The notes: generated from the sequence alone by a model not told the origin. A stretch of DNA of 44,248 nucleotides from a virus (IMGVR_UViG_3300011934_000011:1-44248); one strand, 5' to 3'; positions 25,624-43,347 are shown, numbered from the stretch's first letter. Numbers and translations: made by a program.

Positions 25624-25629
25624 GCGGCG

Positions 25630-25643
25630 TTGTCTCCCGACAA
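25630..25643 (-). promoter_or_regulatory. SD-presenting GNRA hairpin of the giant gene
   Basis: On the transcript: TTGTC-GGGA-GACAA, a perfect 5-bp stem with a GGGA (GNRA) loop. The only Shine-Dalgarno of the giant gene, GGGAG, is the loop plus the closing G. The ATG follows the hairpin after six bases. The stem sequence differs from those of the related hairpins. Confidence 0.65.
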
Positions 25644-25693
25644 GGCAGGCTAACCAAAACAGTAGCGGGTATCAGCTAAAGATCAGTCAGCGA

Positions 25694-26707
25694 TTATTCA
25701 AACTCAATATCTGAGTATTTTATTATACCAGCGGCGGCGGCCTCTAGCCTTCCAATCTGCTTGTCATCCAACTTATTTGCTTCCATAAGCGTCTTGGCTC
25801 TTTCATAAGCCTCTTTTGCAGCTTCATCACGATCCGCTTGAGACATACCGGGCCCTCTACCTATCCTTGCAGCCAGTCCGCGAATCTCGTTGATCTCGTT
25901 TTCAATCTCCCTTTCTTCCCGCTCGGTCTGGCGTTGCTCCGATGCTGATTGCTGCTCGGCTCTTGCGTTATTTATTAGGCCTTTAAATCCTTGGCCAGAA
26001 TCTTCATTAGCGTCAGGATTTCCCGGCGGTGGTGTAACGCCATCATCACCCGGTGCCGGTGTTTCTTCGCCGCCATATGCGGTGTCTACTTCTGCGTTTA
26101 CGCCGCCATTACCTCCACTGCTATCAAGCAGCCTGCCTATTTGCTTCTTTACAGTATCAAGTTCAAGGCGTATTTCAGCGGCTCGCTCAGGGCTGGCCAT
26201 GCCTTCATTAAGCTCTTCAGAAAGCAATTTGCGGCGATTTTGATAGTCTTCAAAAGCTAGCTCTTCGCGCGGGGTTAGCTCAGTCGTACCGCCAAAGTTA
26301 AAGTTTTCGGAACCTTCAATCGCCTCTATTCGTCCGGTTCGGGCGTTAATACGCACGGGTGTACCGTCAGAGGTAGACGTGATCTTCCAGTCATTGCGAT
26401 TCGCTGCTGACCGTCTATTGGCGCCGCTCTCGCGAATATTGGTCAACGTCCTGTCGTGCGCAAAGCCCATATCACGATCTTCCACCGCATCCTCACGCTG
26501 CATATCGTAATCGCTTAGCTGCCATTCACGATCTTCAGCACGCACTACATCTTGACGCTCGTTTTGGCGACCCTCTGCCCGTATTTGCATGTCCTCGCGC
26601 AGCTTGAGCAATGCCCGCTCCCGCTTCTTGGCAAGGCTGTTATCGGCAATATCGTTTACCGCCTGCGCGCCACCTTCGAGGGCTGCGCCTATTAATCCCA
26701 TCGCCAT
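25694..26707 (-). CDS. Putative internal virion protein, 337 residues
   Basis: Unrecognised protein with a short Gly/Ala-rich hydrophobic start (MGLIGAALEGGAQAV), then long charged helices (LAKKRERALLKLREDMQIRAEGRQNERQDV), a Pro/Gly/Asp-rich linker at about 205-245 and a C-terminal coiled coil. A run of such helical, low-complexity proteins between tail genes and a giant multidomain protein is typical of podovirus ejection proteins. ATG 26707 overlaps the upstream stop (TAATG) with GGGAGG four bases away; ATG 26701 is an alternative. Confidence 0.65.
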   Translation of the reverse strand: MAMGLIGAALEGGAQAVNDIADNSLAKKRERALLKLREDMQIRAEGRQNERQDVVRAEDREWQLSDYDMQREDAVEDRDMGFAHDRTLTNIRESGANRRSAANRNDWKITSTSDGTPVRINARTGRIEAIEGSENFNFGGTTELTPREELAFEDYQNRRKLLSEELNEGMASPERAAEIRLELDTVKKQIGRLLDSSGGNGGVNAEVDTAYGGEETPAPGDDGVTPPPGNPDANEDSGQGFKGLINNARAEQQSASEQRQTEREEREIENEINEIRGLAARIGRGPGMSQADRDEAAKEAYERAKTLMEANKLDDKQIGRLEAAAAGIIKYSDIEFE

Positions 26708-27321
26708 TACACACCTCCCGGCTGCATTGGTTGCTGTGGCGGTTGAGCGCCCTGCGGCTGACCTTGCGGTGGCTGCCCACCCTGTGGCTGCCCGCCCTGT
26801 GCCGCTTGCTTGCCTTCTTTCAGGCCGCGTGCAATCTGTGCGTACTGCTGTTTTTCTTCCGGCGGCATATCGTTGGCATTACGGCCAAAGTTGCCCAAGC
26901 CAAGCAGGAATGCCATTTCAATCGCTTCATCTTCGCCCTGCGGCACCACGCCCATTTCCATGGCCATTTCACCAATGGCCTTGGATAGCTCGATACCGGC
27001 GCGAACCATGACGTTCGGCTGAACGCTTCGACCGTTTTGGCCTAGCGCGTTGTACACCGTCGTCATCACCATGCCGATTACCTGCCCCATGGAGTCAACG
27101 GGGTCGCCTGATTCAAGCACGCCCTCAATGCGTTGCAGGCCGTCGCCGTAAACGTAGCTCAGCATTCGCTCTACAATCGGCTCAAACTGTCCGCGCTCAC
27201 CGCCCTGCTGTGGCGGCTCACCCTGTTGCGCTTGCTGCCCCTCTGGCGGCTGCTGTGCATTGGGTGGCATTGGCTCTTGTGGCGGTTGCTGCTGCATGCC
27301 TTGCTGGATAAGTCCAACCAT
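26707..27321 (-). CDS. Putative internal virion protein with Gln/Pro-rich ends, 204 residues
   Basis: A folded-looking core (FEPIVERMLSYVYGDGLQRIEGVLES...VMVRAGIELSKAIGEMAMEMGVVPQGEDEAIEMAFLLGLGNFGRN) lies between very Gln/Pro/Gly-rich tails (GMQQQPPQEPMPPNAQQPPEG; GGQPQGGQPPQGQPQGAQPPQ). The tails are probably disordered. AGGAG 8 nt upstream supports ATG 27321. No family is recognised. The place among the ejection-type genes is the main clue. Confidence 0.65.
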   Translation of the reverse strand: MVGLIQQGMQQQPPQEPMPPNAQQPPEGQQAQQGEPPQQGGERGQFEPIVERMLSYVYGDGLQRIEGVLESGDPVDSMGQVIGMVMTTVYNALGQNGRSVQPNVMVRAGIELSKAIGEMAMEMGVVPQGEDEAIEMAFLLGLGNFGRNANDMPPEEKQQYAQIARGLKEGKQAAQGGQPQGGQPPQGQPQGAQPPQQPMQPGGV

Positions 27322-27333
27322 GTGGCGCTCCTG

Positions 27334-28383
27334 TTATCCGAATACGTTGGTGGCGGCGTCTGCCAGGCTGGCAAACTGGTAATTTCCTTGGCTTTGCGGC
27401 TGATAACCATAAGCCTGGTTACCGCCTGAACTGACGGGCATGGTGGCTTGATCGGCCTGTTCGTTGATCTCTGCCTGACGACGAGCGCGGGCAATGTCTG
27501 TGGCGCTGGTCAGGTTGGCGTTATCACGCTCATTACCGCCGGGTGATTCTGACGGCCCTGCTGGACCTGTTGGCCCATTGCCTGACGACATAGCGGCTCC
27601 GCGCGCTGCGTTACCTGCTGTCATGCTGCCGATAAGCCCGCCTGCGATAGCGCCGGGTACGCCACCAATGGATGCCCCGGCTTTAGCGCCAAAACGACCG
27701 CCCACCTTGGCGCCGAGTGTGCCTGACAAAGCACCGACAGCTTGTTGGCCGACGTTAGTGGCCAGACCTTCATCAACACTGGTGCCGAATTCGGTGTTAT
27801 GGGATTTTGCCGACTGTTGCGCGTTATAGCCTCTCGCCATGGAATTAGCGGCATAACCAAGTGCTGGCTGACCAATGGCGGTCAAGCCAGCCGTCATCAT
27901 ACTGCCGATAAGGCCGGGTTTGGCGTTTGACGCGATGGATTGCTGCGCCCTGCTGGTCGCTTCCTCCATGCTGATCGGGCTGGCGGCAAGGTTGTCACCC
28001 AGCGTACCGCCGTAATTGCTGGGCGTATTGGCTCCGTATGCGGTATTTTCCGGGCCCATCTGTGTGTCAGATTCTGTCTGCCAACCACCAAAGGCTTCTT
28101 CCGCTGCATCGGCAGCGCCTGCGTAACCCCCAAGGCCGGAGACGCCACCATCGGCACCTACCGAGCTTGTGCCACCGTGTGCAGAATCAACACCATGGCC
28201 AACGGCACCGCCATAACCGCCGCCGCCAGCACCATTTGCGCCGCCGGATGCGTTACTTGACCCCATGCCACCGTTACCGGATGCACGGCCCCCACCGTCG
28301 CCATTGGAGCCAGCACCGCTAGAGCCGCCACCACCAACACCGCCGGTATCTGCTTCGCCGCCAAAACCGCCACCGTAACCCAT
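27334..28383 (-). CDS. Gly-rich internal virion protein with glycine-zipper segment, 349 residues
   Basis: Residues 1-110 are extremely Gly/Ser/Asn-rich (GYGGGFGGEADTGGVGGGG). Residues about 205-270 form alternating small-residue helices (VGALSGTLGAKVGGRFGAKAG, then GGVPGAIAGGLIGSMTAG) that match the glycine-zipper pattern of membrane-inserting proteins. That suits a pilot/ejection protein that lines a DNA channel during infection. GGAGG before ATG 28383 decides the start; the upstream ATG at 28428 lies inside the previous gene. Assignment to ejection is inference. Confidence 0.65.
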   Translation of the reverse strand: MGYGGGFGGEADTGGVGGGGSSGAGSNGDGGGRASGNGGMGSSNASGGANGAGGGGYGGAVGHGVDSAHGGTSSVGADGGVSGLGGYAGAADAAEEAFGGWQTESDTQMGPENTAYGANTPSNYGGTLGDNLAASPISMEEATSRAQQSIASNAKPGLIGSMMTAGLTAIGQPALGYAANSMARGYNAQQSAKSHNTEFGTSVDEGLATNVGQQAVGALSGTLGAKVGGRFGAKAGASIGGVPGAIAGGLIGSMTAGNAARGAAMSSGNGPTGPAGPSESPGGNERDNANLTSATDIARARRQAEINEQADQATMPVSSGGNQAYGYQPQSQGNYQFASLADAATNVFG

Positions 28384-28384
28384 A

Positions 28385-28789
28385 TCAATACCTCCGCTGC
28401 GTGCGCTTCGGTTCGTCTCGGTTGGCAATCAGTCCATTGCTGATTAACCCCTTGCTGATACTGTTAGGCGTGACGCCGATGTTGCCACCACCGGCACCGG
28501 GCTTGATTTGCCGCGCTTCTTGTTGGCGGTCAAACATCGCATTTTCGTGGTCGCGCTGCTCTTTTGCGCTGAAATACGTGCCGACACCACTAGCCACACC
28601 AGCCAATAATTTTGCTGTATTGGCGTTATCTTCAATCCAGCCTGTTGTGTTGTCCAGCCAGTCAAACGCTTTCGTGCCGTACTCGACGCCGGTATCCCAG
28701 AAGTTGGAATCTGACACGGCATCAGCGGCGCTTGAAACGCTTTCGGTGATGGTGTCTGTGTTGATGTTATCCAGCCATGACATATCCAT
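28385..28789 (-). CDS. Small putative virion protein, 134 residues
   Basis: An acidic N-terminal half (LDNINTDTITESVSSAADAVSDSNFWDTGVEYGTKAFDWLDNTTGWIEDNA) is followed by a short hydrophobic stretch (TAKLLAGVASGVGTYFSAKEQ) and a charged tail. The hydrophobic piece followed by QRDHENAMFDRQQEARQ resembles small internal proteins of podoviruses. GGAGG eight bases before ATG 28789 lies in the stop region of the upstream gene, so translation is coupled. Function unknown. Confidence 0.6.
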   Translation of the reverse strand: MDMSWLDNINTDTITESVSSAADAVSDSNFWDTGVEYGTKAFDWLDNTTGWIEDNANTAKLLAGVASGVGTYFSAKEQRDHENAMFDRQQEARQIKPGAGGGNIGVTPNSISKGLISNGLIANRDEPKRTQRRY

Positions 28790-28794
28790 GGTAA

Positions 28795-30642
28795 TTACCT
28801 CCGGCGGTATTCGTCGCTGCTTTTAAGTTCTTGCTCAATTTGTGCCACCGTCATTTCACCAGACGATAGCTTGGCAATGTAATGGTCGCGTGCGGCTTCA
28901 CCCGGGATGCGGTTAAACACTTTGCGGAAAAGGTCTGAAATCTTGCCTTCCGGGCTGTTTTTCAGCTCATTCTTGACCTGATTCAGCGTCATCTCGCCAG
29001 ACTCTATCTTGTTGCGATAATGGTTGAGAGCCGCCCCTTTCGGCGCTCGACCAAGCGTGTCTTGGTAAAGGTTTCCGATAGCGCTGCCCTGATTACCGCC
29101 ACTATTGCTGCCACCAGAGTTACCGCGGCTTTCAATATCACGGCGAATATCACCAAAGGTAAGCCCTTCATTTTGAGAGCGGTCAAGGTAATTACGAATT
29201 TCGGCGTCAGACAGGGAAACACCTGCGCTATCGGCGTAGCCTTTCACCTGGTCGATCTGGCCTGAACGATAATTGCTGTTGGCGTTCTGGTTATTGGTGT
29301 TACCAGTGCCGCTGCGGCTGGCTTCAGGGCTGTTGGGTTTATCAGGGAACACGCCGGTTTCTTCCATGAAGTTGCCCAGGTCGCCAAGCAATCCCTGCTG
29401 AATATTGATCATGTTGTCCGTCTGATCCTGAACATCCTTGATAAGCGCCGCTTTATCTTCTTCAGAAATGTTCGGGTTCATTTGAATCTGGTCAATCCGC
29501 CGCGCACTGTTGGCCATGGTGTCGGTGACGCTGTTAGCCATGACACCCCAACCGTTGGCGTTAGCGCTGCCGTACAGCTCATTCATGCCGTTCTGGAAGG
29601 ATTTCTTGGCAAGACTGGACTGGAAACCAAAGTCTTGCGTTGCGCGCTGAAGATTTTGGCTGAACTCTTGCTGGCTTAGGTTGCTGCGGAAGTTGTAGTC
29701 CTGCTGGTTAAGGGTGCTCTGGATGTTGCCTTGCTGCTGGTTAAGGCCAAGCTGCTGCTGATAATCCTGGCTACTCATTTGCTGATTGGCGCCCAATTCA
29801 GCGCCGATTAGGCCGACGTTTTGAATGTAGCCTTGATCGTTTAGCGCTGACTGAATATCAAAGCCCTGGCTGGCTCGGCCAAGGTCATGCAGATAGCTTT
29901 GATCGCCAAGCGCTGACTGGATATCGAAGTTCTGCGAGTTAAGGCCGCGCTGATGGTCATAGCCTTGGTCGTTAAGCTCTTTCTGCAAGCTGTTGGCCAG
30001 TTGCATGTTCCCCTGCTCAAGGGCTTGGCTAAGCTTCATCTGTTTCTGCTGGATCGTGTCGCCCAAGCGCATATTGGACTGCTCAAAGCCTTGCTGCTGC
30101 TCGTTGAGGTCACGTTGCAGGCTGTTGGCTAACTCCATATTGCCTTGTTCGAGGGCTTGGTTAAGCTCCATCTGGGTTTGCTGAATACGGTCGGCCAGCT
30201 TCATATCACTCTGGCCCAGCGTGTTATCAAGGCGCATCTGCCCTTGTCGAATCTGGTCGGCAAGGCTCATGTTGTCTTGCTGATAGCCTTGCTGTTGCTC
30301 AGACTTGTAGCTATCGCCAATTAATCCCGCCTGCAATAACCCGCGCCGATTCTGCGCTTCGGTGTTGCGTTGAGCGTTCTGGATCAGGTTGTTGCTGTCC
30401 TGCATGGCGAAAGGCTGGGCGCGGTCAATCATGGCACCTTGAGCACTGCCAGCGGCCATGCTGCTGTTTAGCAAGCCACGGCTTTGGGATTGCTGTTTAC
30501 CTTGCGTAGCGGCGCGTTTCATTAAGGGGGAGTTGCTGCCCAGCATCTTGTCCAAGCGGCCTGCGCTGGTCATACCCTCGCCGATACGAGTCTGCTTTGC
30601 GCCGGGCATGTTATTCAGCGCTTTTTGTAAATCACTTTGCAT
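28795..30642 (-). CDS. Virion protein with hendecad array and DUF4214-like repeats, 615 residues
   Basis: Residues 122 to about 350 are roughly 21 consecutive 11-residue repeats of the form QxxMxLAxxIQ (QDNMSLADQIR, QGQMRLDNTLG, QSDMKLADRIQ ...), the pattern of a right-handed coiled coil. The C-terminal 100 residues hold two DUF4214-like units (LYQDTLGRAPKGAALNHYRNKIESGEMTLNQV and LFRKVFNRIPGEAARDHYIAKLSSGEMTVAQI). It heads the ejection-protein cluster. An internal core or pilot protein is likely; a peptidoglycan or glycan contact through the DUF4214 units is possible. The SD sits in a GNRA hairpin. Confidence 0.7.
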   Translation of the reverse strand: MQSDLQKALNNMPGAKQTRIGEGMTSAGRLDKMLGSNSPLMKRAATQGKQQSQSRGLLNSSMAAGSAQGAMIDRAQPFAMQDSNNLIQNAQRNTEAQNRRGLLQAGLIGDSYKSEQQQGYQQDNMSLADQIRQGQMRLDNTLGQSDMKLADRIQQTQMELNQALEQGNMELANSLQRDLNEQQQGFEQSNMRLGDTIQQKQMKLSQALEQGNMQLANSLQKELNDQGYDHQRGLNSQNFDIQSALGDQSYLHDLGRASQGFDIQSALNDQGYIQNVGLIGAELGANQQMSSQDYQQQLGLNQQQGNIQSTLNQQDYNFRSNLSQQEFSQNLQRATQDFGFQSSLAKKSFQNGMNELYGSANANGWGVMANSVTDTMANSARRIDQIQMNPNISEEDKAALIKDVQDQTDNMINIQQGLLGDLGNFMEETGVFPDKPNSPEASRSGTGNTNNQNANSNYRSGQIDQVKGYADSAGVSLSDAEIRNYLDRSQNEGLTFGDIRRDIESRGNSGGSNSGGNQGSAIGNLYQDTLGRAPKGAALNHYRNKIESGEMTLNQVKNELKNSPEGKISDLFRKVFNRIPGEAARDHYIAKLSSGEMTVAQIEQELKSSDEYRRR

Positions 30643-30644
30643 AG

Positions 30645-30658
30645 TCGTCTCCCGACGA
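30645..30658 (-). promoter_or_regulatory. SD-presenting GNRA hairpin of the 615-residue virion gene
   Basis: On the transcript: TCGTC-GGGA-GACGA, a perfect 5-bp stem. The SD GGGAG is the loop plus the closing G, seven bases before the ATG. Compared with the hairpin at 25630, the stem pairs differ but pairing is kept. Confidence 0.65.
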
Positions 30659-30676
30659 GTTGTGTTGACTAACCGC

Positions 30677-31069
30677 TTATACCGACCAGCTAATGTTATT
30701 CACGTCAGTCAACGACCCATCCATCACCTGTGCCGCGTACTGACTCTCCAGCGCAATCAACTGCGAGCGACGCTGACCAATAGACTGATACGCTTGTTGT
30801 ACATCAGCAGATGGCATCGTTGTGTGAAAGCCGCCATCTGAATCCTTCCACCCAGCAAACTCTGTCAGGTTTGCAGCGTTGGCGAACTGCAACGCTTCAC
30901 TTAATGCCTGTCGGTTGCTGGGATCACCTGAAAAGCGAACGCCGTTGATTGTTACGCCTTCCGCCTCGGCTTCTTTGCGCTTGGTTTCTAGTTGGTTAAT
31001 AAGTGACGATTTACGCTCAGCAGATTGATCTTCAGCGGTCTTTACTTCTGCGTTATCAAGCCAGGTCAT
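30677..31069 (-). CDS. DUF4376-type phage protein
   Basis: A 130-residue protein. The segment KRKEAEAEGVTINGVRFSGDPSNRQALSEALQFANA...FAGWKDSDGGFHTTMPSADVQQAYQSIGQRRSQLIALESQYAAQV follows the DUF4376 pattern found in tail-fibre-associated genes of many prophages. GGAGG nine bases before ATG 31069 decides the start, and the ATG overlaps the stop of a small TM gene. It closes the tail-fibre cassette. Its function is unknown; it may be a fibre chaperone or virion decoration. Confidence 0.75.
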   Translation of the reverse strand: MTWLDNAEVKTAEDQSAERKSSLINQLETKRKEAEAEGVTINGVRFSGDPSNRQALSEALQFANAANLTEFAGWKDSDGGFHTTMPSADVQQAYQSIGQRRSQLIALESQYAAQVMDGSLTDVNNISWSV

Positions 31070-31194
31070 AGGTAAAAGCCTCCTGCTATGCTGGTAAAAA
31101 ATATGAAACCCATTGCCCCAATTATGTATAAGCCTCTTTTCTCTTTTTGCGTAAAGTCCCTCCAATGACGAAGTCGCAACCTTTTATTCTTCAT
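31066..31194 (-). CDS. Single-pass small membrane protein, 42 residues
   Basis: ATGA overlaps at both ends fit it tightly between neighbours. The peptide has a very basic N-terminus (MKNKRLRLRHWRDFTQKEKR) and then one hydrophobic segment (GLYIIGAMGFIFFTSIAGGF), so N-in, C-out insertion is likely. Too short to place in a family. Location among fibre-cassette genes hints at an accessory or moron function. Confidence 0.6.
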   Translation of the reverse strand: MKNKRLRLRHWRDFTQKEKRGLYIIGAMGFIFFTSIAGGFYL

Positions 31195-31397
31195 TCGACC
31201 ACCTCCTTTTCATACTCAACAACAATTTTGCAGTAGCCGTAAATGTCTTCTTCGTCCGCGTTTGCATCTACATAAAACACAGGTTTGCCGTCAAGGCTGT
31301 AACCTCTAACAGCCCCGTTAGGACGCTCGTGGGTTGTAAAAAGATAGTCGCAGTCGTCTTCCAAGATAGTGCCGGGGGTCAAGCGATTAAATTTCAT
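31191..31397 (-). CDS. Small acidic protein, 68 residues
   Basis: GAGGA eight bases before ATG 31397 is the best site; longer readings run deep into the upstream gene. The product (MKFNRLTPGTILEDDCDYLF...) looks like a small beta-barrel (FTTHERPNGAVRGYSLDGKPVFYVDANADEEDIYGYCKIVVEYEKEVVE). Low-GC DNA compared with the capsid genes. Function unknown. Confidence 0.6.
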   Translation of the reverse strand: MKFNRLTPGTILEDDCDYLFTTHERPNGAVRGYSLDGKPVFYVDANADEEDIYGYCKIVVEYEKEVVE

Positions 31398-31704
31398 CAA
31401 AAGATTCCTCTTCAACAATGTCATAAATCGGCAGATCAATAACGCCGCTGTGATTAGTCAGCACAATCGGCTGCGGGAAGCGTGTTTCTTCTGGTGCGTT
31501 AGACCCGTGGCTTAGTTTAATAGTGCATGTGTATTCGTTACCGTTGCGTGTCACTTTGCCCAGATCAGGGTGTTGGGCAACCGCACCATCGGGTAGCTCA
31601 GACAAATCGTAGTCCATACCGTTGACCGTTAGCACAGTGCCTGCGAGAGACGCCACAGTTTCTTCGTCACTGCGGACGGGGGATAAATTAAGTGTTAGTT
31701 TCAT
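31387..31704 (-). CDS. Conserved prophage protein of the tail-fibre cassette, 105 residues
   Basis: The opening MKLTLNLSPVRSDEET, the motifs VLTVNGMDYDLSELPDGA and SHGSNAPEETRFPQP, and an acidic end form a pattern I know from hypothetical proteins beside tail-fibre genes in Pseudomonas and Halomonas-type prophages. AAGGAG six bases before the ATG. A fibre-assembly or virion-associated role is inferred from position only. Confidence 0.7.
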   Translation of the reverse strand: MKLTLNLSPVRSDEETVASLAGTVLTVNGMDYDLSELPDGAVAQHPDLGKVTRNGNEYTCTIKLSHGSNAPEETRFPQPIVLTNHSGVIDLPIYDIVEEESFDEI

Positions 31705-31799
31705 GTTGTTCTCCTTCTGCTTTTGGATTTACGTTTCTGGGCAGAATAGATAGTTGAAATAATTCCTGTTTTTGTTCTGTACCATTCTTGATGTGTCAT
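31701..31799 (-). CDS. Possible remnant of a phage HNH-type protein, 32 residues
   Basis: The ORF begins with MTHQEWYRTKTGIISTIYSAQK and ends in a basic run before an ATGA overlap with the next gene. The opening resembles the first residues of phage homing-endonuclease-like proteins that begin with (W/Y)Y+TK+GLI...IY..Q...SK+R. Those proteins are much longer, so this is either a truncated remnant kept in frame or a chance small ORF. The ribosome binding site is poor. Confidence 0.35.
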   Translation of the reverse strand: MTHQEWYRTKTGIISTIYSAQKRKSKSRRRTT

Positions 31800-31809
31800 A
31801 TCACTACCC

Positions 31810-32913
31810 CTATATCCAGCGGCCAACAGCTTTTAAAGACAAAGCAATAACAGTAACATCTGTTCTGTATGTATTATTAGGTGCTCTTAACCTTCCATTA
31901 AATCTGGTTAATTCATCAGAAGTATTTGACCTAGTAACAATATTACTCCGGCCAATTTCTTCTGCAGTTGCATCATTATCAAAAGCGCGGTGGTCATATA
32001 TCTGGCTCAACACAACCACGTCTCCATTGGCGCTAAAAATATGTGGATAATCTTGATAAATTGATGCTTCTGCTGTGGATTCTGCTGGTCCACTAAATAT
32101 TACTGCTTTCCAGCATTCAAGCGTCCCATCAGCAAACTTCACATACTCCCCATTAGCGTTACTCCCCCGCTCAATAATCGCCCCTGTAGGAATGCCATTG
32201 GTCTGGGATACGGTGCCAAGGATGCTGCCCTGCCGATATGCCTGCGCTTGCCCTGCCCCCGTCTTAAGCAGCCGCCCTGCGGTCGTGTCCGTTGCGCTTG
32301 TGGTGACATCAGCAGCGGCGGCGGTGCCTGCGTCTGAGATGGTGGATAGCGGCTGAGTACCGGTGTGGTTAGCGCGAGCCAAGGCGTCTGTTGCGGCCTG
32401 TTGGTTCGCTAATGCCTGTGCCATCCATTCACGCAGCTTGCGGGTATCGCTGGTCAGATCAGCGGTAATGTCGAACTCGTTGGGATCGCCAAAGTTCTGC
32501 GCTTCCTCCGCCCACTCCCTTGCAGATTTGGCACCAATCTCTGGCTCGATACCCTCCGCCCAGTCCTGCGACTTATCGCGGGCTGTTTCGGACGCGGTAG
32601 CGGCATTGGTGGCAGTTGTGGCGCTGCTACTGGCGTTATTCTCGCTGGTCGCTGCACTGGTGGCGCTGCCTTCCGCATCGGATGCGGCTTGCACAGCATC
32701 ATCACGCGCTTGATTGTAGTCGGCACCGCGAAGCAAAGCCCCATCCCAGTAGGTGCTGCCGCCGGTATCCAGCGGGCCTGTGCCAGTGACATCGGCAATA
32801 CAGACATAGCTCTGCCCATCGGCGGTAACAATGTCATGCTCAAGGTAAGGGGTCGTGCTGACGTATTCGCCGCGCCAATTAGGGCGTACTCGGCCAAGGT
32901 TGAGCGTTGGCAT
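31810..32913 (-). CDS. Tail fibre / receptor-binding protein, 367 residues
   Basis: Residues 1-60 are a beta-rich virion-attachment part (NWRGEYVSTTPYLEHDIVTADGQSYVCIAD). Residues 65-125 are an Ala/Ser/Thr-rich coiled coil. HTGTQPLSTISDAGTAAA is a typical fibre segment. GAIIERGSNANGEYVKFADGTLECW opens the C-terminal tip domain. The last 90 residues are encoded by AT-rich DNA, so the tip was probably exchanged recently. ATG 32913 overlaps the stop of the upstream fibre gene (TAATG), GGAGG upstream. It probably recognises the host surface together with that fibre. Confidence 0.8.
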   Translation of the reverse strand: MPTLNLGRVRPNWRGEYVSTTPYLEHDIVTADGQSYVCIADVTGTGPLDTGGSTYWDGALLRGADYNQARDDAVQAASDAEGSATSAATSENNASSSATTATNAATASETARDKSQDWAEGIEPEIGAKSAREWAEEAQNFGDPNEFDITADLTSDTRKLREWMAQALANQQAATDALARANHTGTQPLSTISDAGTAAAADVTTSATDTTAGRLLKTGAGQAQAYRQGSILGTVSQTNGIPTGAIIERGSNANGEYVKFADGTLECWKAVIFSGPAESTAEASIYQDYPHIFSANGDVVVLSQIYDHRAFDNDATAEEIGRSNIVTRSNTSDELTRFNGRLRAPNNTYRTDVTVIALSLKAVGRWI

Positions 32914-33863
32914 TACAGTGTTACCTCCAGTTCGCCAGCGGCGTTAATCGAGAAGTTGGCTTCATCCGAGTAGCCCGCAAAGTGGGCAATCAGATCAGGG
33001 CCGGATATTTCAAAGTTGAGAAAATCCATCGTGGTCGTGTCGTTAATGCGCGTGGCGACGGTATCCGCATCTGTAGCGGCCTGGCTGGCGGTGCTGGCGT
33101 CAGTGCTGGCAGACGCTGCGGCATTGACGGCAGTTGTTTCGGCGCTTTGTGCGTTGCTTTCACTAACACCGGCGGCTTGTGCTGACAGTTGTGCGGCGCT
33201 CTCGGATGCGGCAGCATTGCCCTCGGCACTTGCGGCACTTGCCTCTAGCCCTTCAACGCGGCTCTCTGCGGCCTGCACTTCGTCACGATAGGCGCGTGTC
33301 GCAGCTTCATCGCCCTGCGCCCTGAGTGCGTAGAATCGCGCCCCTCGCAGCACGCCTTCTACGGCATCAAGGCTGGTTGCCCACTGCTCTGCTTTGTTGC
33401 GGGCATCAATCGCCAGATTCTTTTGAACGCGCACCGTGTCGGCGTCAATCGCCAGATACCAAATGCTGGTGTCGGTAAAGTCTTTTGTTGTGCCGCTGTT
33501 GTGTTTGCGCACGATCAGCACGTACAGGTTGGTGGTCGTCGGGTCGCGCACCACGTCATTCAGGAAGTAATCAGTGTTCTGCTGCCAGTCGCCCCGGTTA
33601 AAGAAGCCGGATACCAGCGCAAGGTTGCCTTCGGTATCAAAGCCAAGCACCCGGTTGCGGCGCTGCAAAGCAGTGGCGTCAAACTCTTGGCTCGTCATGC
33701 CGGTTTCAAACGGCACCTTCACGGCACGGCGGGTATCCTTTTCCACTTCAGCCAGGCCGGTAGCCACGGCATCAAACTTTTCATCGACGGCCTCACCTTC
33801 GGCGGTTGTGCCTGCCTGAAAGCGTGTGCCCGGGTCTGAGTTATCAAAGTAGGTGTTAGCCAC
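32913..33863 (-). CDS. Tail fibre-like protein, 316 residues
   Basis: GTG 33863 with AGGAGG seven bases upstream is the start; an ATG at 33992 would overlap the previous gene with an atypical sequence. The N-terminal 180 residues are folded (NTDYFLNDVVRDPTTTNLYVLIVRKHN). Residues 190-275 are a long Ala/Ser/Glu coiled coil (AAESRVEGLEASAASAEGNAAASESAAQLSAQA), and the short C-terminus (DLIAHFAGYSDEANFSINAAGELEV) ends as in fibre stems. It likely connects the tail hub to the distal fibre encoded next. Confidence 0.78.
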   Translation of the reverse strand: MANTYFDNSDPGTRFQAGTTAEGEAVDEKFDAVATGLAEVEKDTRRAVKVPFETGMTSQEFDATALQRRNRVLGFDTEGNLALVSGFFNRGDWQQNTDYFLNDVVRDPTTTNLYVLIVRKHNSGTTKDFTDTSIWYLAIDADTVRVQKNLAIDARNKAEQWATSLDAVEGVLRGARFYALRAQGDEAATRAYRDEVQAAESRVEGLEASAASAEGNAAASESAAQLSAQAAGVSESNAQSAETTAVNAAASASTDASTASQAATDADTVATRINDTTTMDFLNFEISGPDLIAHFAGYSDEANFSINAAGELEVTL

Positions 33864-35325
33864 GGCGTAGCCTCCTGGTTTGTGCGTGCAGGTCGTAGCC
33901 CAGTATTTCGTGCGGCTCGTCTGAAGATTCAGAGAAAATGGCAAAGTTGATACTGGTGCCAGTGCCTTCAATGTCGACCGGCTCTTGGCCAATCACCGGC
34001 ACGGACCAGTTAAAACTCCCCCAGTTATCGACGCCCCATAGGCCGCCACCCAGCATGTAGTCAATCGGTGTGCGGCGAGGTCGCCCGGTCTGCGTGTCGC
34101 CATAATCAAAGTCAGGCTGCAGCCACATACGGGATTCGCTACCGGCGCGGATATCCCAGAAGGCGCGGCGGAAGCGCTTGCGAGCACTGGGGGCTTTGAG
34201 ATCGGTGAAGGCAAGGGTTAGCAGGGCGCGAACAGGCGTGCCCGCGAAGTCATTGCCGTGGTCGAGGCGGTAAACGTAGCCGCTATCACTGCCGAACAGA
34301 GACATTTCGTTGCCGCTGGATAGCTCGCCACTACATGCGGCTGATACTTGGTGAGGAAACTGGACCTGCGTTATACCGGTGGGGCTGAAGTAGAAACCAG
34401 AACCGTCGTCAAAGAACACGCGGTACTGTGCCTTGCTGCGTGATACGGCGCTGGCTACCACGCGGTCGGAATAACCACCCGCAATGAAAAGCGGTTCAAC
34501 GACGCGGCCGGGCTGTTTAAGCGAGAAGTCGCCGAACTGATCAGCGGCTTGCAGGTTGGATATGCCACGCTCGCTGACAAAGAACTGGGCCGTCATGGTT
34601 TGCGCTGAATACCGACGAACGCCCACGCCGGGTATCGTGACTTCCAGCTGGGATTCCTCGGCGCTGCGAAAGCGTAGTGTCTGGATGCTGTCGCGGCACA
34701 TAACATGCAGCACACCACCGACGCCTTTCACGATACCGGTCAGTGTTTGGCCGACGCCGATTTCACCGGCACCACCCGTTGCAGCATCCCAGTTCGTCGG
34801 GTCGCCAATACCTGAGAACTGCAGGCTGCCCGCATCAAAGCCAAGAAATAGGTGGTTCTGGTGTAGCGCTATCATGGTGGCGCCACTTGGCGCATTGGTT
34901 AGCGTGCTTAGCGTACCGTCCTGCTTTAGCTCAAACGGCTTGCCGCCACCCACGCCATACAAGGCATTGCCTGCTTCGGTAGCGTAGGCGTTGCCTTCGT
35001 CAAACTCATAGCGGTTATTGTCCAGCTCTCCACCTGTGCCCACCGCCGTCCACGTTGAGCCGTCCAACCTGTACAGCGTGGCGCTATTGACTCCGGCATC
35101 CTTGCGCACGGCATAGGTATCGTCATCAAATACTGCCACGCCCAGTATCGGCCCATCACCCGGTACCAGGTCGCCCCACTGCGTATAGCCATCAATTCGA
35201 CGGTAGCCACCCGTAACCGGGCATTCGTAGTTAATCGCTGACAGGGCTGCGCCGGGATTGAGTTGGCGTGTCGGGGTTATCAGGTCCAGCCCACCACCAA
35301 GGGGAATGTAGATGGGTCGCGTCAT
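33856..35325 (-). CDS. P22 gp10-like tail hub protein, 489 residues
   Basis: A beta-rich protein whose repeated Trp/Gly-Asp blades (YECPVTGGYRRIDGYTQWGD, GVAVFDDDTYAVRKDAG, ALHQNHLFLGFDAGSLQFSGIGDPTNWDAATGGAGEIGVGQTLTGI) resemble the P22 gp10 'packaged DNA stabilisation' family and related podovirus tail hubs. The length (about 470-490) fits. It follows an adaptor gene and precedes fibres, the usual order portal-adaptor-hub-fibre. Its start overlaps the adaptor's stop. Confidence 0.72.
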   Translation of the reverse strand: MTRPIYIPLGGGLDLITPTRQLNPGAALSAINYECPVTGGYRRIDGYTQWGDLVPGDGPILGVAVFDDDTYAVRKDAGVNSATLYRLDGSTWTAVGTGGELDNNRYEFDEGNAYATEAGNALYGVGGGKPFELKQDGTLSTLTNAPSGATMIALHQNHLFLGFDAGSLQFSGIGDPTNWDAATGGAGEIGVGQTLTGIVKGVGGVLHVMCRDSIQTLRFRSAEESQLEVTIPGVGVRRYSAQTMTAQFFVSERGISNLQAADQFGDFSLKQPGRVVEPLFIAGGYSDRVVASAVSRSKAQYRVFFDDGSGFYFSPTGITQVQFPHQVSAACSGELSSGNEMSLFGSDSGYVYRLDHGNDFAGTPVRALLTLAFTDLKAPSARKRFRRAFWDIRAGSESRMWLQPDFDYGDTQTGRPRRTPIDYMLGGGLWGVDNWGSFNWSVPVIGQEPVDIEGTGTSINFAIFSESSDEPHEILGYDLHAQTRRLRRG

Positions 35326-35954
35326 GCTAACGACTCCCCTAGCGTAATGGTCGGTAGCTGCGTGCGCATCAGGTCACGCATCAGGCGGCGCTCGGCTTCA
35401 CGACTGGATGCCAGCACTTCCTCGGCGTTTTCGTATAGCGCGTAGTGCTGCATCGCTCGATACACAATCACCATGTGGTACTGCGCAGGCAGGCGGGGAA
35501 TGTCGGTGCTTTCTGTTAGAGTTTCCGGTGTGCGCCAGTATTCAAACGTGATTTCCTCGTTATCTTCTGGCGTTGTGTCGAGCTTAAAGCTGCCCGTTGG
35601 TGTGATGGTGATGCGGCTTGGCCGGTCATGGCCTGAGTCATCGCGGTAGCGGTCGCGGAAGTGGTGCCACGGCAAGTACCGCAGCTCGTCACTACTGACG
35701 CGAATTGTTCGATCATCCCAGCGCAGAAAGTCAGACGGTGGCGAATACTCACGGAACGCAGCGTCCACCACCACGGCACCTTCAGCCCAGTTAAACAGCC
35801 AATCATCACGCTCCTGCTGGATTTCCTGCCATGCGGTCTGTACCCATGACACTAGCCGGGCGTATTCACCTGACTGGCCCTGTACGTTGGCAGGCCCCGT
35901 TCCGGCTGCGCCGACTTCTTGGCGTAGCCGTTGGCACAGCTCAAGGAACGTCAT
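35322..35954 (-). CDS. Head-tail adaptor protein, 210 residues
   Basis: MTFLELCQRLRQEVG, SWVQTAWQEIQQERDDWLFNWAEG, a central beta region ending in ITFEYWRTPETLTE, and IVYRAMQHYALYENAEEVLASSREAERRLMRDL are the landmarks of podovirus adaptor proteins (P22 gp4-like/DUF6682-type). Mostly helical ends bind the portal ring. It sits between capsid and tail hub genes. SD GGAG seven bases upstream. Confidence 0.75.
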   Translation of the reverse strand: MTFLELCQRLRQEVGAAGTGPANVQGQSGEYARLVSWVQTAWQEIQQERDDWLFNWAEGAVVVDAAFREYSPPSDFLRWDDRTIRVSSDELRYLPWHHFRDRYRDDSGHDRPSRITITPTGSFKLDTTPEDNEEITFEYWRTPETLTESTDIPRLPAQYHMVIVYRAMQHYALYENAEEVLASSREAERRLMRDLMRTQLPTITLGESLA

Positions 35955-35957
35955 GGC

Positions 35958-36344
35958 TTACTCCACGGTACGGATGATCTGGAACGGGTAGCTCAGGACT
36001 TCGGTGCGCGCCATGTCGGAGGGGTCGTATTCGTAACGCACGGCGTTGTTCAGCACCTCAACCACGGACGCGGGTACAACCACTTTCTCGCCGCGCTTGA
36101 TGACAAACATCTTGCCGTTGACTCCTACTTGTACAGGCTGCTTGTCGCGGCTGTCGGTCTGAATAACGATCTCGTACTTCTTGGCCTGTTCAGGCTCGGC
36201 AGGGGCAGGGGCTGACGTATCACCCAGCTGCTCGCTGATCTTTTTGCGCAACGTGTCATCAGTCACGTCGCTGCGAAACTTTACACCCAGGTCAGTAGCG
36301 GTTTGCTCAAGCTCGGCGCGGTCAATCTTGGTTAAATCGGTCAT
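35958..36344 (-). CDS. Virion-associated protein with HeH/LEM-like N-terminus, 128 residues
   Basis: Residues 1-40 (LTKIDRAELEQTATDLGVKFRSDVTDDTLRKKISEQLG) form a HeH/LEM-type helix-extended loop-helix. A Pro/Ala linker follows, then a compact beta part (YEIVIQTDSRDKQPVQVGVNGKMFVIKRGEKVVVPASVVEVLNNAVRYEYDP). Proteins of this shape follow the capsid gene in many phages and may decorate the head or neck. A GNRA hairpin carries its Shine-Dalgarno, and a terminator lies between it and the capsid gene. Confidence 0.65.
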   Translation of the reverse strand: MTDLTKIDRAELEQTATDLGVKFRSDVTDDTLRKKISEQLGDTSAPAPAEPEQAKKYEIVIQTDSRDKQPVQVGVNGKMFVIKRGEKVVVPASVVEVLNNAVRYEYDPSDMARTEVLSYPFQIIRTVE

Positions 36345-36348
36345 GCGG

Positions 36349-36362
36349 ATACCTCACGGTAT
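36349..36362 (-). promoter_or_regulatory. SD-presenting GTGA hairpin before the 128-residue gene
   Basis: On the transcript: ATACC-GTGA-GGTAT, a perfect 5-bp stem with a GTGA (GNRA) loop. GAGG spans loop and stem; the ATG is four bases past the hairpin. The closing pairs match the capsid-gene hairpin, but the two outer pairs differ. Confidence 0.65.
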
Positions 36363-36371
36363 GCGGAAAGT

Positions 36372-36397
36372 AAAAAGCCCCGGCGGATGCCAGGGCT
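36372..36397 (-). terminator. Terminator after the capsid gene
   Basis: On the minus strand AGCCCTGGC-ATCC-GCCGGGGCT forms a 9-bp stem with one T-G pair, followed by five T. It separates the capsid gene from downstream tail genes and would lower their level relative to capsid. Confidence 0.85.
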
Positions 36398-36415
36398 TCG
36401 GTGGGTCAATCGGCG

Positions 36416-37408
36416 TTATGCCAGCTCGGTGGCCGCTACTTCCATGCGTGCGAGCCATGCTTCGTTCAAAATCTTGGCAACAAAGTAAGTTTTCCAGCCA
36501 ACAGAGCCACGCTGGCCGAGCGGATCACCGCCACGCGGGGTATCCGGGTTAAGCACCTTCGGCGTCACGGCATTTTTACCCTTTAACGGGATCAGGCCGT
36601 AAGACTCCTTGGCAATGTAGACCACGGGGTACACGTCAGCGGCTGTTCCGCCAGAGGATACCATGCTGCCTGCGGCACCACCTGCGTCGATGAACTTGTC
36701 CAGCACCGGAGACAGCACATAGCGCACGTCCTCGACCTTGCCGATTTCATACGGTAGCGCCTTCATGCTGCCGTACTTCTCGGTCGGCACGAAGCCGGTC
36801 ATATCGCGAATGTCGGCCTCAAGATCGGTGTGGGCAAACGCGATGAACGCGGCATCCACTGGCTCAGTGCTGTAGTTCGGCGAACCACCAACCATCTGCG
36901 TCACTTTCTTGGCACGCTGCGCCTTGAGTGCGCGGGTCACGGTACGCTGCTTGTTGAGGCTGATCGCTGTGTTGACGGCAGCACGACTTGCGCCGTTGGC
37001 GTACACAACATTAGTGCCGCCTCGAATGGCGCCCCAAGTTTGTGTCTCGACGGTTTCCGCTGCCTGCTCACCGCACAGCATGGAAGCGTCAGACAGTACC
37101 GGGTCTTCCGCCAGGTCGTTGACCACATCAGTGATCTCAACCCATGCGCCCCACTGCTTGATCTGAACTTCAACATCTTCGTAGTTCATCTGTTGCGCGG
37201 TCGGTGTAGCACCTTCCGTCAGCGGGGTGGCAGGAATGGCGAACGGCACCGGGCGACGGAACTTGACCGTATCAGCGGCGTTCTTGGGCATTGGCTTGGA
37301 CTGGCCGAACTTGGACAGCACAAGGATAGGCTCGGCATGAGCCAGCATTTCGGTGGCGGCGTAAGCAGCGGTACGCTGGGAAATATCGCCGTATTTGGTT
37401 GTAGCCAT
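36416..37408 (-). CDS. Major capsid protein, N4-gp56 family
   Basis: A 330-residue HK97-fold capsid protein. The hallmarks are FGQSKPMPKNAADTVKFRRPVPFAIPATPLTEGATPTAQQMNYEDVEVQIKQWGAWVEITDVV near the N-terminus, the IRGGTNVVYANGASRAAVNT segment, and the AFIAFAHTDLEADIRDM and GFVPTEKYGSMKALPYEIGKVEDVRYVLSP run in the middle. This is the N4-gp56 family pattern. It lies directly downstream of the scaffold gene, with a GNRA hairpin carrying the SD and a strong terminator after it. No protease gene is seen, so scaffold removal is probably by exit rather than cleavage. Confidence 0.92.
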   Translation of the reverse strand: MATTKYGDISQRTAAYAATEMLAHAEPILVLSKFGQSKPMPKNAADTVKFRRPVPFAIPATPLTEGATPTAQQMNYEDVEVQIKQWGAWVEITDVVNDLAEDPVLSDASMLCGEQAAETVETQTWGAIRGGTNVVYANGASRAAVNTAISLNKQRTVTRALKAQRAKKVTQMVGGSPNYSTEPVDAAFIAFAHTDLEADIRDMTGFVPTEKYGSMKALPYEIGKVEDVRYVLSPVLDKFIDAGGAAGSMVSSGGTAADVYPVVYIAKESYGLIPLKGKNAVTPKVLNPDTPRGGDPLGQRGSVGWKTYFVAKILNEAWLARMEVAATELA

Positions 37409-37414
37409 TGCGTG

Positions 37415-37428
37415 TTACCTCACGGTAA
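37415..37428 (-). promoter_or_regulatory. SD-presenting GTGA hairpin of the capsid gene
   Basis: On the transcript: TTACC-GTGA-GGTAA, a perfect 5-bp stem with a GNRA loop. The SD GAGG spans the loop end and the stem. It fills most of the 25-base gap between scaffold stop and capsid start. Confidence 0.7.
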
Positions 37429-37433
37429 GAGAG

Positions 37434-38312
37434 TTAGCGTTGCCGCGCTTTTTTGGCGGCGTAGTGTTCAAAGGCAGCGTCAAAATCCTCTGGCGTTCCC
37501 CGTTGTTGAGCGGCCCCACGGCGGCTCACTGTTTGAGCGTTTGCCAAGCGGTCTTTTCGCTTGTCGTGCTGAGTTGCACGGCTGTTGTCTCCCATGCCCA
37601 CGCCCTTGTAGAAGTCGATTAGCGCGGATGCGTCATCGGCGCTGTCGCTGTCTGCAAGTTGCTGGATACTGGGGTTCTGTGACTGCAACCATGTGGAAAA
37701 CTCAGGCGCATTGATCACATCACGCCAATCCTCATGCCGGCTTTCGAGGCGGGCATACTCAGACTGGACCTGCTGTTCATGGGCCTGTTGCTGGATGGGT
37801 TGCACGGTGCTTTGCAGCTGCTGTAGCTGCGTTTCGAGTTGCGCTTGTCGCTGTTTGTCAGCGTTTAGCCGGGCCTCGAATGCCCTTGCCATATCGGGGA
37901 AGTCCTCTTTAAACGTCTCCCAGTCATCGCTGCCTAGCTCTTGTGCGGCTTCGTCGCGGCGCTGGTCGTCGTTTTGTGGCTTTCCCTCGGCATCCTTTGG
38001 GCGCTGCTGCTGCGTCTGCTGCAACTGCGCCTGCAATTCATTGATCTGGCGTTGATAGGCGCCTAACCGTCCACGCTGTGACGCCTCGCTGTGCTTGAGC
38101 TTCTGGTTTTCTGTCTCAAGCGTGCTGAGTCGGTCGTTAATGTCCGGCTCTGGCGGGGGTGCGTCATCACCCGGTTCGTCATCGCGGTGGTATTCGTCGC
38201 GGTTTTCCGGGTCAGTGGTGGACTTGGAATACTCGTCAAACGCGCTATCAAAGTCGTTTGAATCGTCGGTATCCTGCGGCTCTTTGTTGAGCGGCTGGTT
38301 TTCCGTGGTCAT
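37434..38312 (-). CDS. Scaffolding protein, 292 residues
   Basis: Acidic disordered N-terminus (DSNDFDSAFDEYSKSTTDPENRDEYHRDDEPGDDAPPPE), then coiled coils (LSTLETENQKLKHSEASQRGRLGAYQRQINELQAQLQQTQQQ and LNADKQRQAQLETQLQQLQSTVQPIQQQ), a helical middle, and a short basic C-terminus (AAKKARQR) that would bind the capsid protein. Charge layout, length and position just before the capsid gene are those of podovirus scaffolds. Two GNRA hairpins precede the start. Confidence 0.88.
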   Translation of the reverse strand: MTTENQPLNKEPQDTDDSNDFDSAFDEYSKSTTDPENRDEYHRDDEPGDDAPPPEPDINDRLSTLETENQKLKHSEASQRGRLGAYQRQINELQAQLQQTQQQRPKDAEGKPQNDDQRRDEAAQELGSDDWETFKEDFPDMARAFEARLNADKQRQAQLETQLQQLQSTVQPIQQQAHEQQVQSEYARLESRHEDWRDVINAPEFSTWLQSQNPSIQQLADSDSADDASALIDFYKGVGMGDNSRATQHDKRKDRLANAQTVSRRGAAQQRGTPEDFDAAFEHYAAKKARQR

Positions 38313-38318
38313 GTAGCG

Positions 38319-38351
38319 GTTCTCCCGAACGGCTATGGCGTCTCACGACGC
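38319..38351 (-). promoter_or_regulatory. Two GNRA hairpins before the scaffold gene
   Basis: On the transcript, GCGTC-GTGA-GACGC (38338-38351) is followed seven bases later by GTTC-GGGA-GAAC (38319-38330). The second carries the SD GGGAG of the scaffold gene. The first could mark the 5' end of the scaffold-capsid message after the terminator at 38375-38399. No obvious promoter lies between terminator and hairpins. Confidence 0.65.
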
Positions 38352-38374
38352 GGTTGAGCCTGAATGTCAGGCAA

Positions 38375-38399
38375 TAAAAAACCCGCTCGATGGCGGGTT
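38375..38399 (-). terminator. Terminator between portal and scaffold blocks
   Basis: On the minus strand AACCCGC/GCGGGTT with a 6-nt loop is followed by six T; it starts within the stop codon of the 67-residue gene. Confidence 0.88.
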
Positions 38400-38601
38400 A
38401 ATAGTCGGTAAAGGGGGTTATGTCTGGCGGTGACTCGTCGCTGGCGTCTGTTAGCAAGTCATCAATCACGCGAATCTCGCCGCGTAGCTTGTCGTCTGCT
38501 TGGGTGCCGTTGATTAACGACTCGATGCACTGCTGTCGGCGCTCATTCAACCAGACTTCGACGGCTTGCCACGTCAGCGTATGCGTATCAATATCAGCCA
38601 T
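38398..38601 (-). CDS. Small acidic protein after portal, 67 residues
   Basis: ATG 38601 overlaps the last codons of the portal gene. The product (DTHTLTWQAVEVWLNERRQQCIESLINGTQADDKLRGEIRVIDDLLTDASDESPPDITPF) has two helices, the second part acidic. Small helical proteins at this position between portal and scaffold are common in podoviruses; role unknown. A terminator begins at its stop. Confidence 0.65.
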   Translation of the reverse strand: MADIDTHTLTWQAVEVWLNERRQQCIESLINGTQADDKLRGEIRVIDDLLTDASDESPPDITPFTDY

Positions 38602-40945: not shown

Positions 40946-40946
40946 A

Positions 40947-41669
40947 TCAGTATCCTGCCGTGGTGTCGCCGGGTTGTGAGCCAGCGCCTATTTGCTGTAT
41001 GGGTTTGGTGGTGGCGTTATGTAAGCCCATCACCATGTACCTAATTCCATCGAGACAATGATCGTTTTCTTTTACAATCTTGCCCTTTTCGTCGCGCCGA
41101 TAAATCCGGAACTCGCCCAGCGTGTGCTGTAGCGTGCTGAATATCTTGATACGCCCGGTGCTTAGCCGCTCTAGTACCTGCATCAAGCCCGACTCTACCG
41201 CCTTGTTGGCTTTGATTAGGTGTAAGCCCTCGTCTTCGTACAGCGACCACAACGAACGCCCATCAACCTGACTACGCCCACGCGCTGCGGTATCAATCAC
41301 GCCGGGTATCCACTCACCGCGCATCCTGATGGCTTTCGCATGTACAGCGGCCTCAGCCTGCCCCCGGTAATGCTCCGAGTACAGATAAAGCACGTCGGTA
41401 TCACGGTCGAGCGCACCCCAGACGGCGGCGGTTTTCTTCCAGCCAACGTCGAGGCCATAGATACGCGGCCACCAGCCGGGAATCTGAAACGGGTCGCAGA
41501 CAATATCTTCTTCCGGCACCGGGTAGATGGCACCACTACCCAGCGTGGGCGTGCCATTCATGCGCGCTTCCAGCTGGTGGGGGCTGATACCCTTGGCCAT
41601 ATCGTCTATGTCCTCTTGCTTGAGGTGGGGCGCGTTACTCCATCCAGCTTGTACGACGTAACGGCTCAC
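40947..41669 (-). CDS. terL: Terminase large subunit, nuclease half
   Basis: A 240-residue protein equal to the C-terminal part of a normal TerL. The RNase H-fold nuclease acids are present: Asp74 in YGLDVGW, Asp126 in GVIDTAARGRSQ and Asp207 in HCLDGIRY. It starts at GTG 41669, overlapping the previous stop as GTGA, and its first residues (SRYVVQAGWSNAPHL) match the point where intact TerL proteins continue after the ATPase domain. It should cut concatemers during headful or cos packaging, presumably in complex with the separately encoded ATPase half. Confidence 0.88.
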   Translation of the reverse strand: MSRYVVQAGWSNAPHLKQEDIDDMAKGISPHQLEARMNGTPTLGSGAIYPVPEEDIVCDPFQIPGWWPRIYGLDVGWKKTAAVWGALDRDTDVLYLYSEHYRGQAEAAVHAKAIRMRGEWIPGVIDTAARGRSQVDGRSLWSLYEDEGLHLIKANKAVESGLMQVLERLSTGRIKIFSTLQHTLGEFRIYRRDEKGKIVKENDHCLDGIRYMVMGLHNATTKPIQQIGAGSQPGDTTAGY

Positions 41670-41887
41670 TGTGCCATCACCATGAACTGCGCCCCTGCAA
41701 TCGTCAGCGTGTCACCAGTGCTTAGCGTAGGGTCTACCTGCCGCGCTACTTTGACTGACAGCATGCCGCCCTCAATGCCGCGCTCTCGCACCATGTCGGC
41801 AATACGCTTGGCTGTGGCCGTCGTGCGGTTCTGGTACTTGGCGCTGACGCTGCCCGCCAGGTAGTCGCCTTGGATGGGGTCTGTCAT
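41666..41887 (-). CDS. ORF wedged between the two terminase halves, 73 residues
   Basis: It begins with MTDPIQGDYLAGSVSAKYQN and ends in a GDTLTIAGAQFMVMAQ strand pair. Starts are coupled at both ends: ATGA with the ATPase half and GTGA with the nuclease half. The three genes use three different frames. I do not recognise the family. The helix with NRTTATAKRIADMVRERG and the closing GD-L-I-G-F-V strands resemble small head-tail joining proteins, which are often encoded near here, so a displaced connector gene is one reading. It is not intein-like: no Cys/Ser start or His-Asn end. Confidence 0.65.
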   Translation of the reverse strand: MTDPIQGDYLAGSVSAKYQNRTTATAKRIADMVRERGIEGGMLSVKVARQVDPTLSTGDTLTIAGAQFMVMAQ

Positions 41888-43345: not shown

Positions 43346-43347
43346 GT

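Follow-up and report, generated by a model that had tools for sequence, protein, structure and literature searches.

In the 44,248-nt virus record IMGVR_UViG_3300011934_000011:1-44248 (the window, meaning this whole stretch of DNA), several late genes are preceded by a short RNA hairpin with a GNRA-type tetraloop, and at five of them the hairpin contains the Shine-Dalgarno (SD) sequence. Judging from the sequence and its comparison with relatives, we tentatively interpret this hairpin as a cis-acting RNA element of phage gene starts that may be read by a trans-acting factor controlling the access of the 30S ribosomal subunit to several late genes together; we consider this plausible, although somewhat short of probable. 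The element is predicted to consist of a 4–5 bp stem, a GNGA (GNRA-type) loop, a fixed non-pair at the foot of the stem, and often an outer helix of 2–4 bp. The closing pair was usually C-G, with T-A in several members of the array described below, and the stems ended at 5 bp. The original prediction, made from this sequence alone, had listed five SD hairpins and a sixth hairpin upstream of them, and all six were located on the minus strand with exactly the positions and sequences claimed:

25630–25643, minus strand: TTGTC-GGGA-GACAA, with the SD of the giant gene (4697 aa) inside the hairpin; C·C flank.
30645–30658, minus strand: TCGTC-GGGA-GACGA, with the SD of the 615-aa gene inside the hairpin; C·C flank.
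36349–36362, minus strand: ATACC-GTGA-GGTAT, with the SD of the 128-aa gene inside the hairpin; C·C flank; just past an intrinsic-terminator-like hairpin.
37415–37428, minus strand: TTACC-GTGA-GGTAA, with the SD of the capsid gene inside the hairpin; C·C flank.
38315–38334 (core 38319–38330), minus strand: AGC-C-GTTC-GGGA-GAAC-C-GCT, with the SD of the scaffold gene inside; C·C mismatch and outer helix.
38338–38351, minus strand: GCGTC-GTGA-GACGC, upstream of the scaffold SD hairpin and outside any SD.

In the five SD hairpins, the SD is made up of the loop and the first bases of the 3′ arm, with 7–11 nt between loop and ATG. None of the five is accompanied by the T run of an intrinsic terminator. 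The late region (minus strand, ~25550–44248) contained 8 sense-strand GNRA tetraloop hairpins with stems of at least 5 Watson-Crick bp, compared to a mean of 0.76 expected from 200 block shuffles, none of which reached 8. These eight were four of the SD hairpins (the scaffold SD stem has only 4 bp), the hairpin upstream of it, and three members of an array that precedes terS, the gene for the small terminase subunit.

The close capsid relatives of the window are prophages in Litchfieldella, Halomonas, Chromohalobacter, and Kushneria (Halomonadaceae; salt-loving bacteria). The sample of relatives comprised 80 fetched IMG/VR loci, and L-numbers (L001 etc.) below are locus labels. Across the clade, 53 GNRA loops lay on the sense strand versus 8 on the antisense strand, compared to 26 and 22, respectively, in a control of 400 kb of host chromosome.

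The claim that the stems covary had been drawn from different genes of a single genome. Orthologous gene leaders were taken from relatives and compared gene by gene, and covariation was borne out for the scaffold, 128-aa, and 615-aa genes. A GNRA hairpin of at least 4 bp was present in 37 of 56 scaffold leaders. In the 11 distinct scaffold sequences, 97.4% of cells paired, with one position occupied by UA, AU, CG, and GC; the observed covariation score was not reached in any of 500 shuffles, and pairing was destroyed when the partner was slid. The 128-aa gene had the hairpin in 19 leaders, and its 11 distinct aligned sequences were 100% paired, with changes from A-U to U-A (one double-sided change) and from A-U to G-U. 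At the 615-aa gene, TCGTC in the window is replaced by TCACC in relatives (TCACC-GGGA/GTGA-GGTGA), with matching 3′ arms. The giant-gene hairpin TTGTC-GGGA-GACAA was invariant in 17 orthologous leaders, so pairing cannot be judged there. For the capsid gene, the claim failed beyond 3 bp in roughly half of the close relatives: the hairpin had 5 bp in the window and L001–L003, 4 bp in L004, and only ACC-GNGA-GGT (3 bp) in L006, L008, L028, L030, L052, and L204, and many other leaders had no such hairpin. The orthologue of the 204-aa gene in relatives carries TCGCC-GGGA-GGCGA, a hairpin absent from this gene in the window, and the hairpin upstream of the scaffold SD occurs in relatives in GCGCC, ACGCC, and TGCC versions. 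A pooled alignment (A4) had been preselected for hairpins and was not counted as proof. Because the element is too low in information for useful E-values, architecture counts were used instead of a covariance model. In the distant relative L103, the portal, scaffold, and 128-aa-like genes likewise have GNRA hairpins, whose stems differ from those of the window.

Among 30 distinct clade SD hairpins, the flanking bases were C·C in 24 and never formed a pair. An outer helix of at least 2 bp was found in 12 of the 30, compared to 5.2 in shuffles (maximum 11 in 1000 shuffles). The position relative to the SD varies while the architecture stays constant: the SD may lie in the loop or just downstream of the hairpin, the hairpin may lie between SD and AUG, or hairpins may form an array with no SD. 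In the more distant prophages L288 and L289, the portal gene has an SD hairpin, while at the scaffold and 128-aa genes a separate SD comes shortly after the hairpin (for example, GC-C-GCCC-GTGA-GGGC-C-GC followed by TGGAG). The hairpin thus lies beside the SD and not over it in these relatives, and the earlier statement that the loop is always part of the SD is not general. It applies to the five SD hairpins, but not to the hairpin at 38338–38351, to the four GTGA hairpins at 43193–43345, or to these distant relatives. In L087, L126, L189, L216, and L288/L289 (portal), the outer helix of the SD hairpin extends into the start codon, as in ATC-A-TTGTC-GGGA-GACAA-C-GATG; such pairing would hide the AUG as well.

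The four GTGA hairpins at 43193–43345 precede terS in the window, and a further hairpin separates its SD from the ATG:

43332–43345, minus strand: terS array element 1, TCGCT-GTGA-AGCGA.
43312–43325, minus strand: terS array element 2, ACGCT-GTGA-AGCGT.
43225–43236, minus strand: terS array element 3, TGCT-GTGA-AGCA.
43188–43211 (core 43193–43206), minus strand: terS array element 4, GCCG-C-ACGCT-GTGA-AGCGT-C-CGGC; predicted fold −13.9 kcal/mol.
43147–43176, minus strand: hairpin between the GAGG SD and the ATG of terS, with a T run at its end; the SD-hairpin-ATG layout is kept in the clade.

Relatives have 1–5 array hairpins before terS, with stems such as TCGCC, ACGCT, GCGCT, TGCC, and ACGTC. 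These are often extended by an outer helix past a C·C or CA·CC internal loop, as in GGGC-CA-CGCC-GTGA-GGCG-CC-GCCC and TGGT-C-GCGCT-GTGA-AGCGC-C-ACCA. In the clade, a hairpin stands directly before terS, between GGAGG (or GAGG) and ATG; the T run after it is present in the window and its closest relatives. The hairpin at 43147–43176 resembles both an intrinsic terminator and a split ribosome-binding site. In L001 (2250–2770), a homing-endonuclease-like open reading frame (ORF) is apparently inserted between terS-array hairpins, and in L002 other extra sequence separates the array from terS.

The element was also found in other phages. The 14-mer TTGTCGGGAGACAA occurred in at least 120 IMG/VR contigs; with an ATG required 3–8 nt downstream, it was found in 44 contigs. 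Under the same ATG criterion, variants with the 5′ or the 3′ side of the stem broken were found in 8 and 5 contigs, respectively, and the restored stem (TTCTC...GAGAA) in 15; the resulting two-by-two table has an odds ratio of 16.5. Related phages are included in these counts. When only distinct gene starts were considered (gap 2–11), the numbers were 41 for the intact stem, 1 and 3 for the broken stems, and 7 for the restored one. TTGTC-GGGA-GACAA precedes genes of some twenty or more unrelated phage protein families. Outside the clade, with similar proteins collapsed and all C-GGGA-G stems included, there were 33 gene-start families, some of which are short ORFs and perhaps not genes; they include portals, three major head protein families (phrog 334, 283, and 1328), and proteins of unknown function. 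When gene families were counted by loop, GGGA was found in 18, AGGA (a better SD, but not GNRA) in 6, and GAGA (GNRA, but a poorer SD) in 2. Both alternatives are rarer than GGGA, which indicates that the GNRA loop and the SD are both needed. The flank was A·C in 20 of the 33 families, whereas identical hairpins away from gene starts had no such bias. Several of these phages hold additional hairpins with other stems (TTGCC, ATGTC, ACGTC, TGCC, and TGTC). The loci were retrieved using TTGTC or TTCTC as seeds, which biases the stem frequencies but not the flanks or the additional hairpins.

A blastn search of the motif against annotated phages returned few records because the motif is short. In Vibrio phage Vp_R1 (L253, 3004–3017), only 3 nt separate the same 14-nt hairpin from the start of a downstream gene annotated as DNA primase/helicase; the element thus also occurs outside late and virion genes. 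No GNRA SD hairpin was found in T7, lambda, 50 kb of N4, or the T4 late region, nor in the annotated capsid relatives Y3, StenR_269, and Rollin, nor in Pam5, phiM5, PaP4, and the Azospirillum prophages.

Host genes lacked the element. The 292 SD starts in 400 kb of a Litchfieldella genome showed no tetraloop excess. The 14-mer followed by a start codon was present in 5 of 201 host-family genomes, always in the GCC-NN-ATG context of the giant gene of this prophage, and the 16-mer form was present in 1 of 399 genomes of the phylum, in the same prophage. A host-wide habit of ribosome-binding sites was ruled out on these grounds, and across the ~600 bacterial genomes searched the element is confined to phages and prophages. 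Together with the compensatory changes in orthologues, the sense-strand GNRA loops, and the stem break/restore counts, this restriction upholds the proposal that selection acts on RNA structure.

What the structure does is less certain. It had been suggested that the hairpin keeps the SD accessible, which the folding predictions did not support. The five hairpins have predicted energies of −4.5 to −6.7 kcal/mol, and opening the SD is predicted to cost 4.1–4.4 kcal/mol in all five leaders. With randomized 5′ arms, the mean opening cost was similar (2.1 to 5.1 kcal/mol) and on average no worse than with the real hairpins. In the window, hairpin genes are preceded by intergenic gaps of 25–281 nt, while late genes that lack the hairpin mostly adjoin or overlap their upstream neighbor; the 105-aa gene is one of a few exceptions, with a long gap but no hairpin. 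The element lies mostly at the starts of genes that are not translationally coupled to the preceding gene.

In the mechanism we propose, the putative factor could be phage-borne, or it could be a host factor exploited by phages, and its binding would govern 30S access at several late genes jointly. Given its overlap or contact with the SD, the element would by default bring about coordinated repression or timing. The terS array could act as a leader operator, or could titrate the factor by offering it additional binding sites. Such control would be akin in its logic to Csr/Rsm, with a different recognition code. A trans-acting factor is suggested by the finding that SD opening is not improved by the hairpin, by the absence of the element from host genes, and by the identical architecture of SD hairpins and SD-less arrays. 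Between such a factor and a purely intrinsic effect, we favor the factor, chiefly on account of the arrays, the conserved flank, and a position that shifts with respect to the SD. Several observations weigh against this proposal. No candidate factor was identified among the window proteins scanned, and the capsid hairpin is reduced to 3 bp, without its outer two pairs, in roughly half of the close relatives. The SD hairpins seen in phages beyond the halomonad clade were single or paired and never in arrays, and an intrinsic mechanism would account for them equally well. Moreover, for phages that infect different hosts, the factor would have to be shared or widely conserved. A broader version, in which unrelated tailed-phage lineages share the [A/C]-5 bp-GNGA-5 bp-C code, one type of factor coordinates virion-gene translation, and the halomonad array titrates this factor as a phage counterpart of the Csr sponge, appears rather doubtful to us.

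A protein may not be needed at all. The hairpin could be an intrinsic translation element, a fast local fold that shields the SD from long-range pairing in a long polycistronic late mRNA; the stem would be weak enough for the 30S subunit to open, and each uncoupled late gene would have a defined and independent initiation rate. We hold this to be a serious possibility, if not a likely one. It agrees with the near-constant SD opening cost, in contrast to the spread of the random-arm means, with stems that do not exceed 5 bp, with the gaps before hairpin genes, and with the occurrence of the element in phages without an obvious common factor. The terS layout also resembles that of T4 genes 25 and 38, where a hairpin between SD and AUG shortens the spacing (PMC3014915). 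Such a split site was found at terS only and not at the five SD-in-hairpin genes, and the T4 genes have one hairpin each, whereas the element described here is repeated. The mean accessibility, however, is no better than with random arms, and an intrinsic effect leaves the arrays without SD, the C·C or A·C identity of the flank, and the absence from host genes unexplained.

mRNA processing or protection is an unlikely explanation: the hairpin would mark or shield the processed 5′ ends of late mRNAs, or hide the SD from an SD-cutting RNase (of phage RegB type or from host defence). The phage-only use of the element would fit, as would elements just upstream of SDs and after terminator-like hairpins, and in T4, GGAG sites are shielded from RegB by RNA structure, with late transcripts resistant without exception (PMC3014915). 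Here, however, the GGA of the loop is unpaired and the next G lies in the stem, which is close to the setting that RegB alone cuts efficiently (PMC3014915). Furthermore, no RNase gene was seen in the scanned parts of the window.

Antitermination, in which the arrays and hairpins would be boxB-like and would bind an N-like protein that carries RNA polymerase through the late-operon terminators, is more improbable still. The array heads the late operon, terminator-like hairpins follow the portal and capsid genes and precede terS, and lambda-type boxB is likewise a 5-bp hairpin with a GNRA-type fold. Its loop, however, is a pentaloop, and it acts with boxA on RNA polymerase rather than on SDs. 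The overlap with the SD at many genes would be left unexplained, and elements outside the clade precede single genes. No boxA was seen by eye in the array sequences, and the scanned early proteins gave no N-like match, although no dedicated model search was made. Chance, or a DNA-level palindrome (operator, packaging site, or mobile repeat), is very improbable even though the array adjoins terS, where packaging sites can occur, because no shuffle reached the hairpin count, the loops are GNGA specifically on the sense strand, the stems vary while pairing stays (the opposite of a sequence operator), and the repeat was not found elsewhere in host genomes.

Among known systems, the element is reminiscent of Csr/Rsm, with which it shares short hairpins over the SDs of several genes and arrays of the same hairpin (there in the CsrB/RsmZ sponge RNAs). 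It differs in its GNGA tetraloops, half of them without GGA, and in that the arrays lie in a phage mRNA leader, with no separate sponge RNA seen. A CsrA site must present GGA unpaired in its loop, which usually has six bases (ANGGAN; RUACARGGAUGU by systematic evolution of ligands by exponential enrichment) (PMC7652899). A CsrA/RsmA target was rejected, as GGGA holds GGA in a closed tetraloop and the GTGA hairpins (capsid gene, 128-aa gene, and arrays) have no GGA. In RNA phages, the coat protein operators are ribosome-binding-site hairpins read by a phage protein that represses translation. The T4 gp43 operator hairpin at a ribosome-binding site is likewise read by a phage protein that represses translation (PMC3014915). 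Unlike the present element, both kinds of operator control a single autoregulated gene, have non-GNRA loops, and have a stem that is not common to several genes.

Rfam gave no match at the gathering score in the whole window; in the leaders of terS and the scaffold gene, the only matches were weak and below threshold. One weak match, to Trp_leader, lies in the portal-scaffold gap (38373–38470, minus strand; E 0.02; 22.6 bits versus a gathering score of 41). The literature searched, which mostly did not extend to subscription journals, contained no description of the sequence or of GNRA SD hairpins. The earlier remark that no family of this type has been described agrees with both searches, and given this coverage the element is likely, but not proven, to be new. 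Translational control of structural genes in double-stranded DNA phages has so far mostly been known gene by gene. The present element is found again and again at genes for capsid, portal, scaffold, terminase, and internal virion proteins, with covariation, a fixed mismatch, and arrays, and it offers a handle on how the amounts or the timing of virion proteins are set in the absence of separate promoters. Should it be read by a factor, the two would form a phage-specific RNA-protein pair. If this holds true, the element could be used to annotate gene starts, to control expression orthogonally, and to recognize late modules in metagenomes.

The window contains genes for an N4-gp56-type capsid protein, an SU10/P22-like portal, terminase, and the giant protein. 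It also encodes a CI/LexA-like repressor, an integrase, and RecT/YqaJ recombination genes, and the phage is therefore very likely temperate. The genes downstream of the hairpins are:

11530–25623, minus strand: giant gene, 4697 aa.
28795–30642, minus strand: 615-aa gene, probable virion protein with DUF4214 at the C end.
35958–36344, minus strand: 128-aa gene of unknown function (phrog_15239 and phrog_2130, neither with an assigned function).
36416–37408, minus strand: major capsid gene, 330 aa, N4-gp56 type.
37434–38312, minus strand: scaffold gene, 292 aa, assigned from where it lies and from its synteny with the scaffold genes in related phages.
42590–43144, minus strand: terS, 184 aa, phrog_1206; the ATG is conserved in relatives.

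The giant ORF fills about one third of the window, and relatives carry comparably long genes after their structural genes. At the left end of the window (492–509, minus strand), a perfect 7-bp palindrome, TACCTAG-GTAA-CTAGGTA, lies directly 5′ of a 155-aa ORF.

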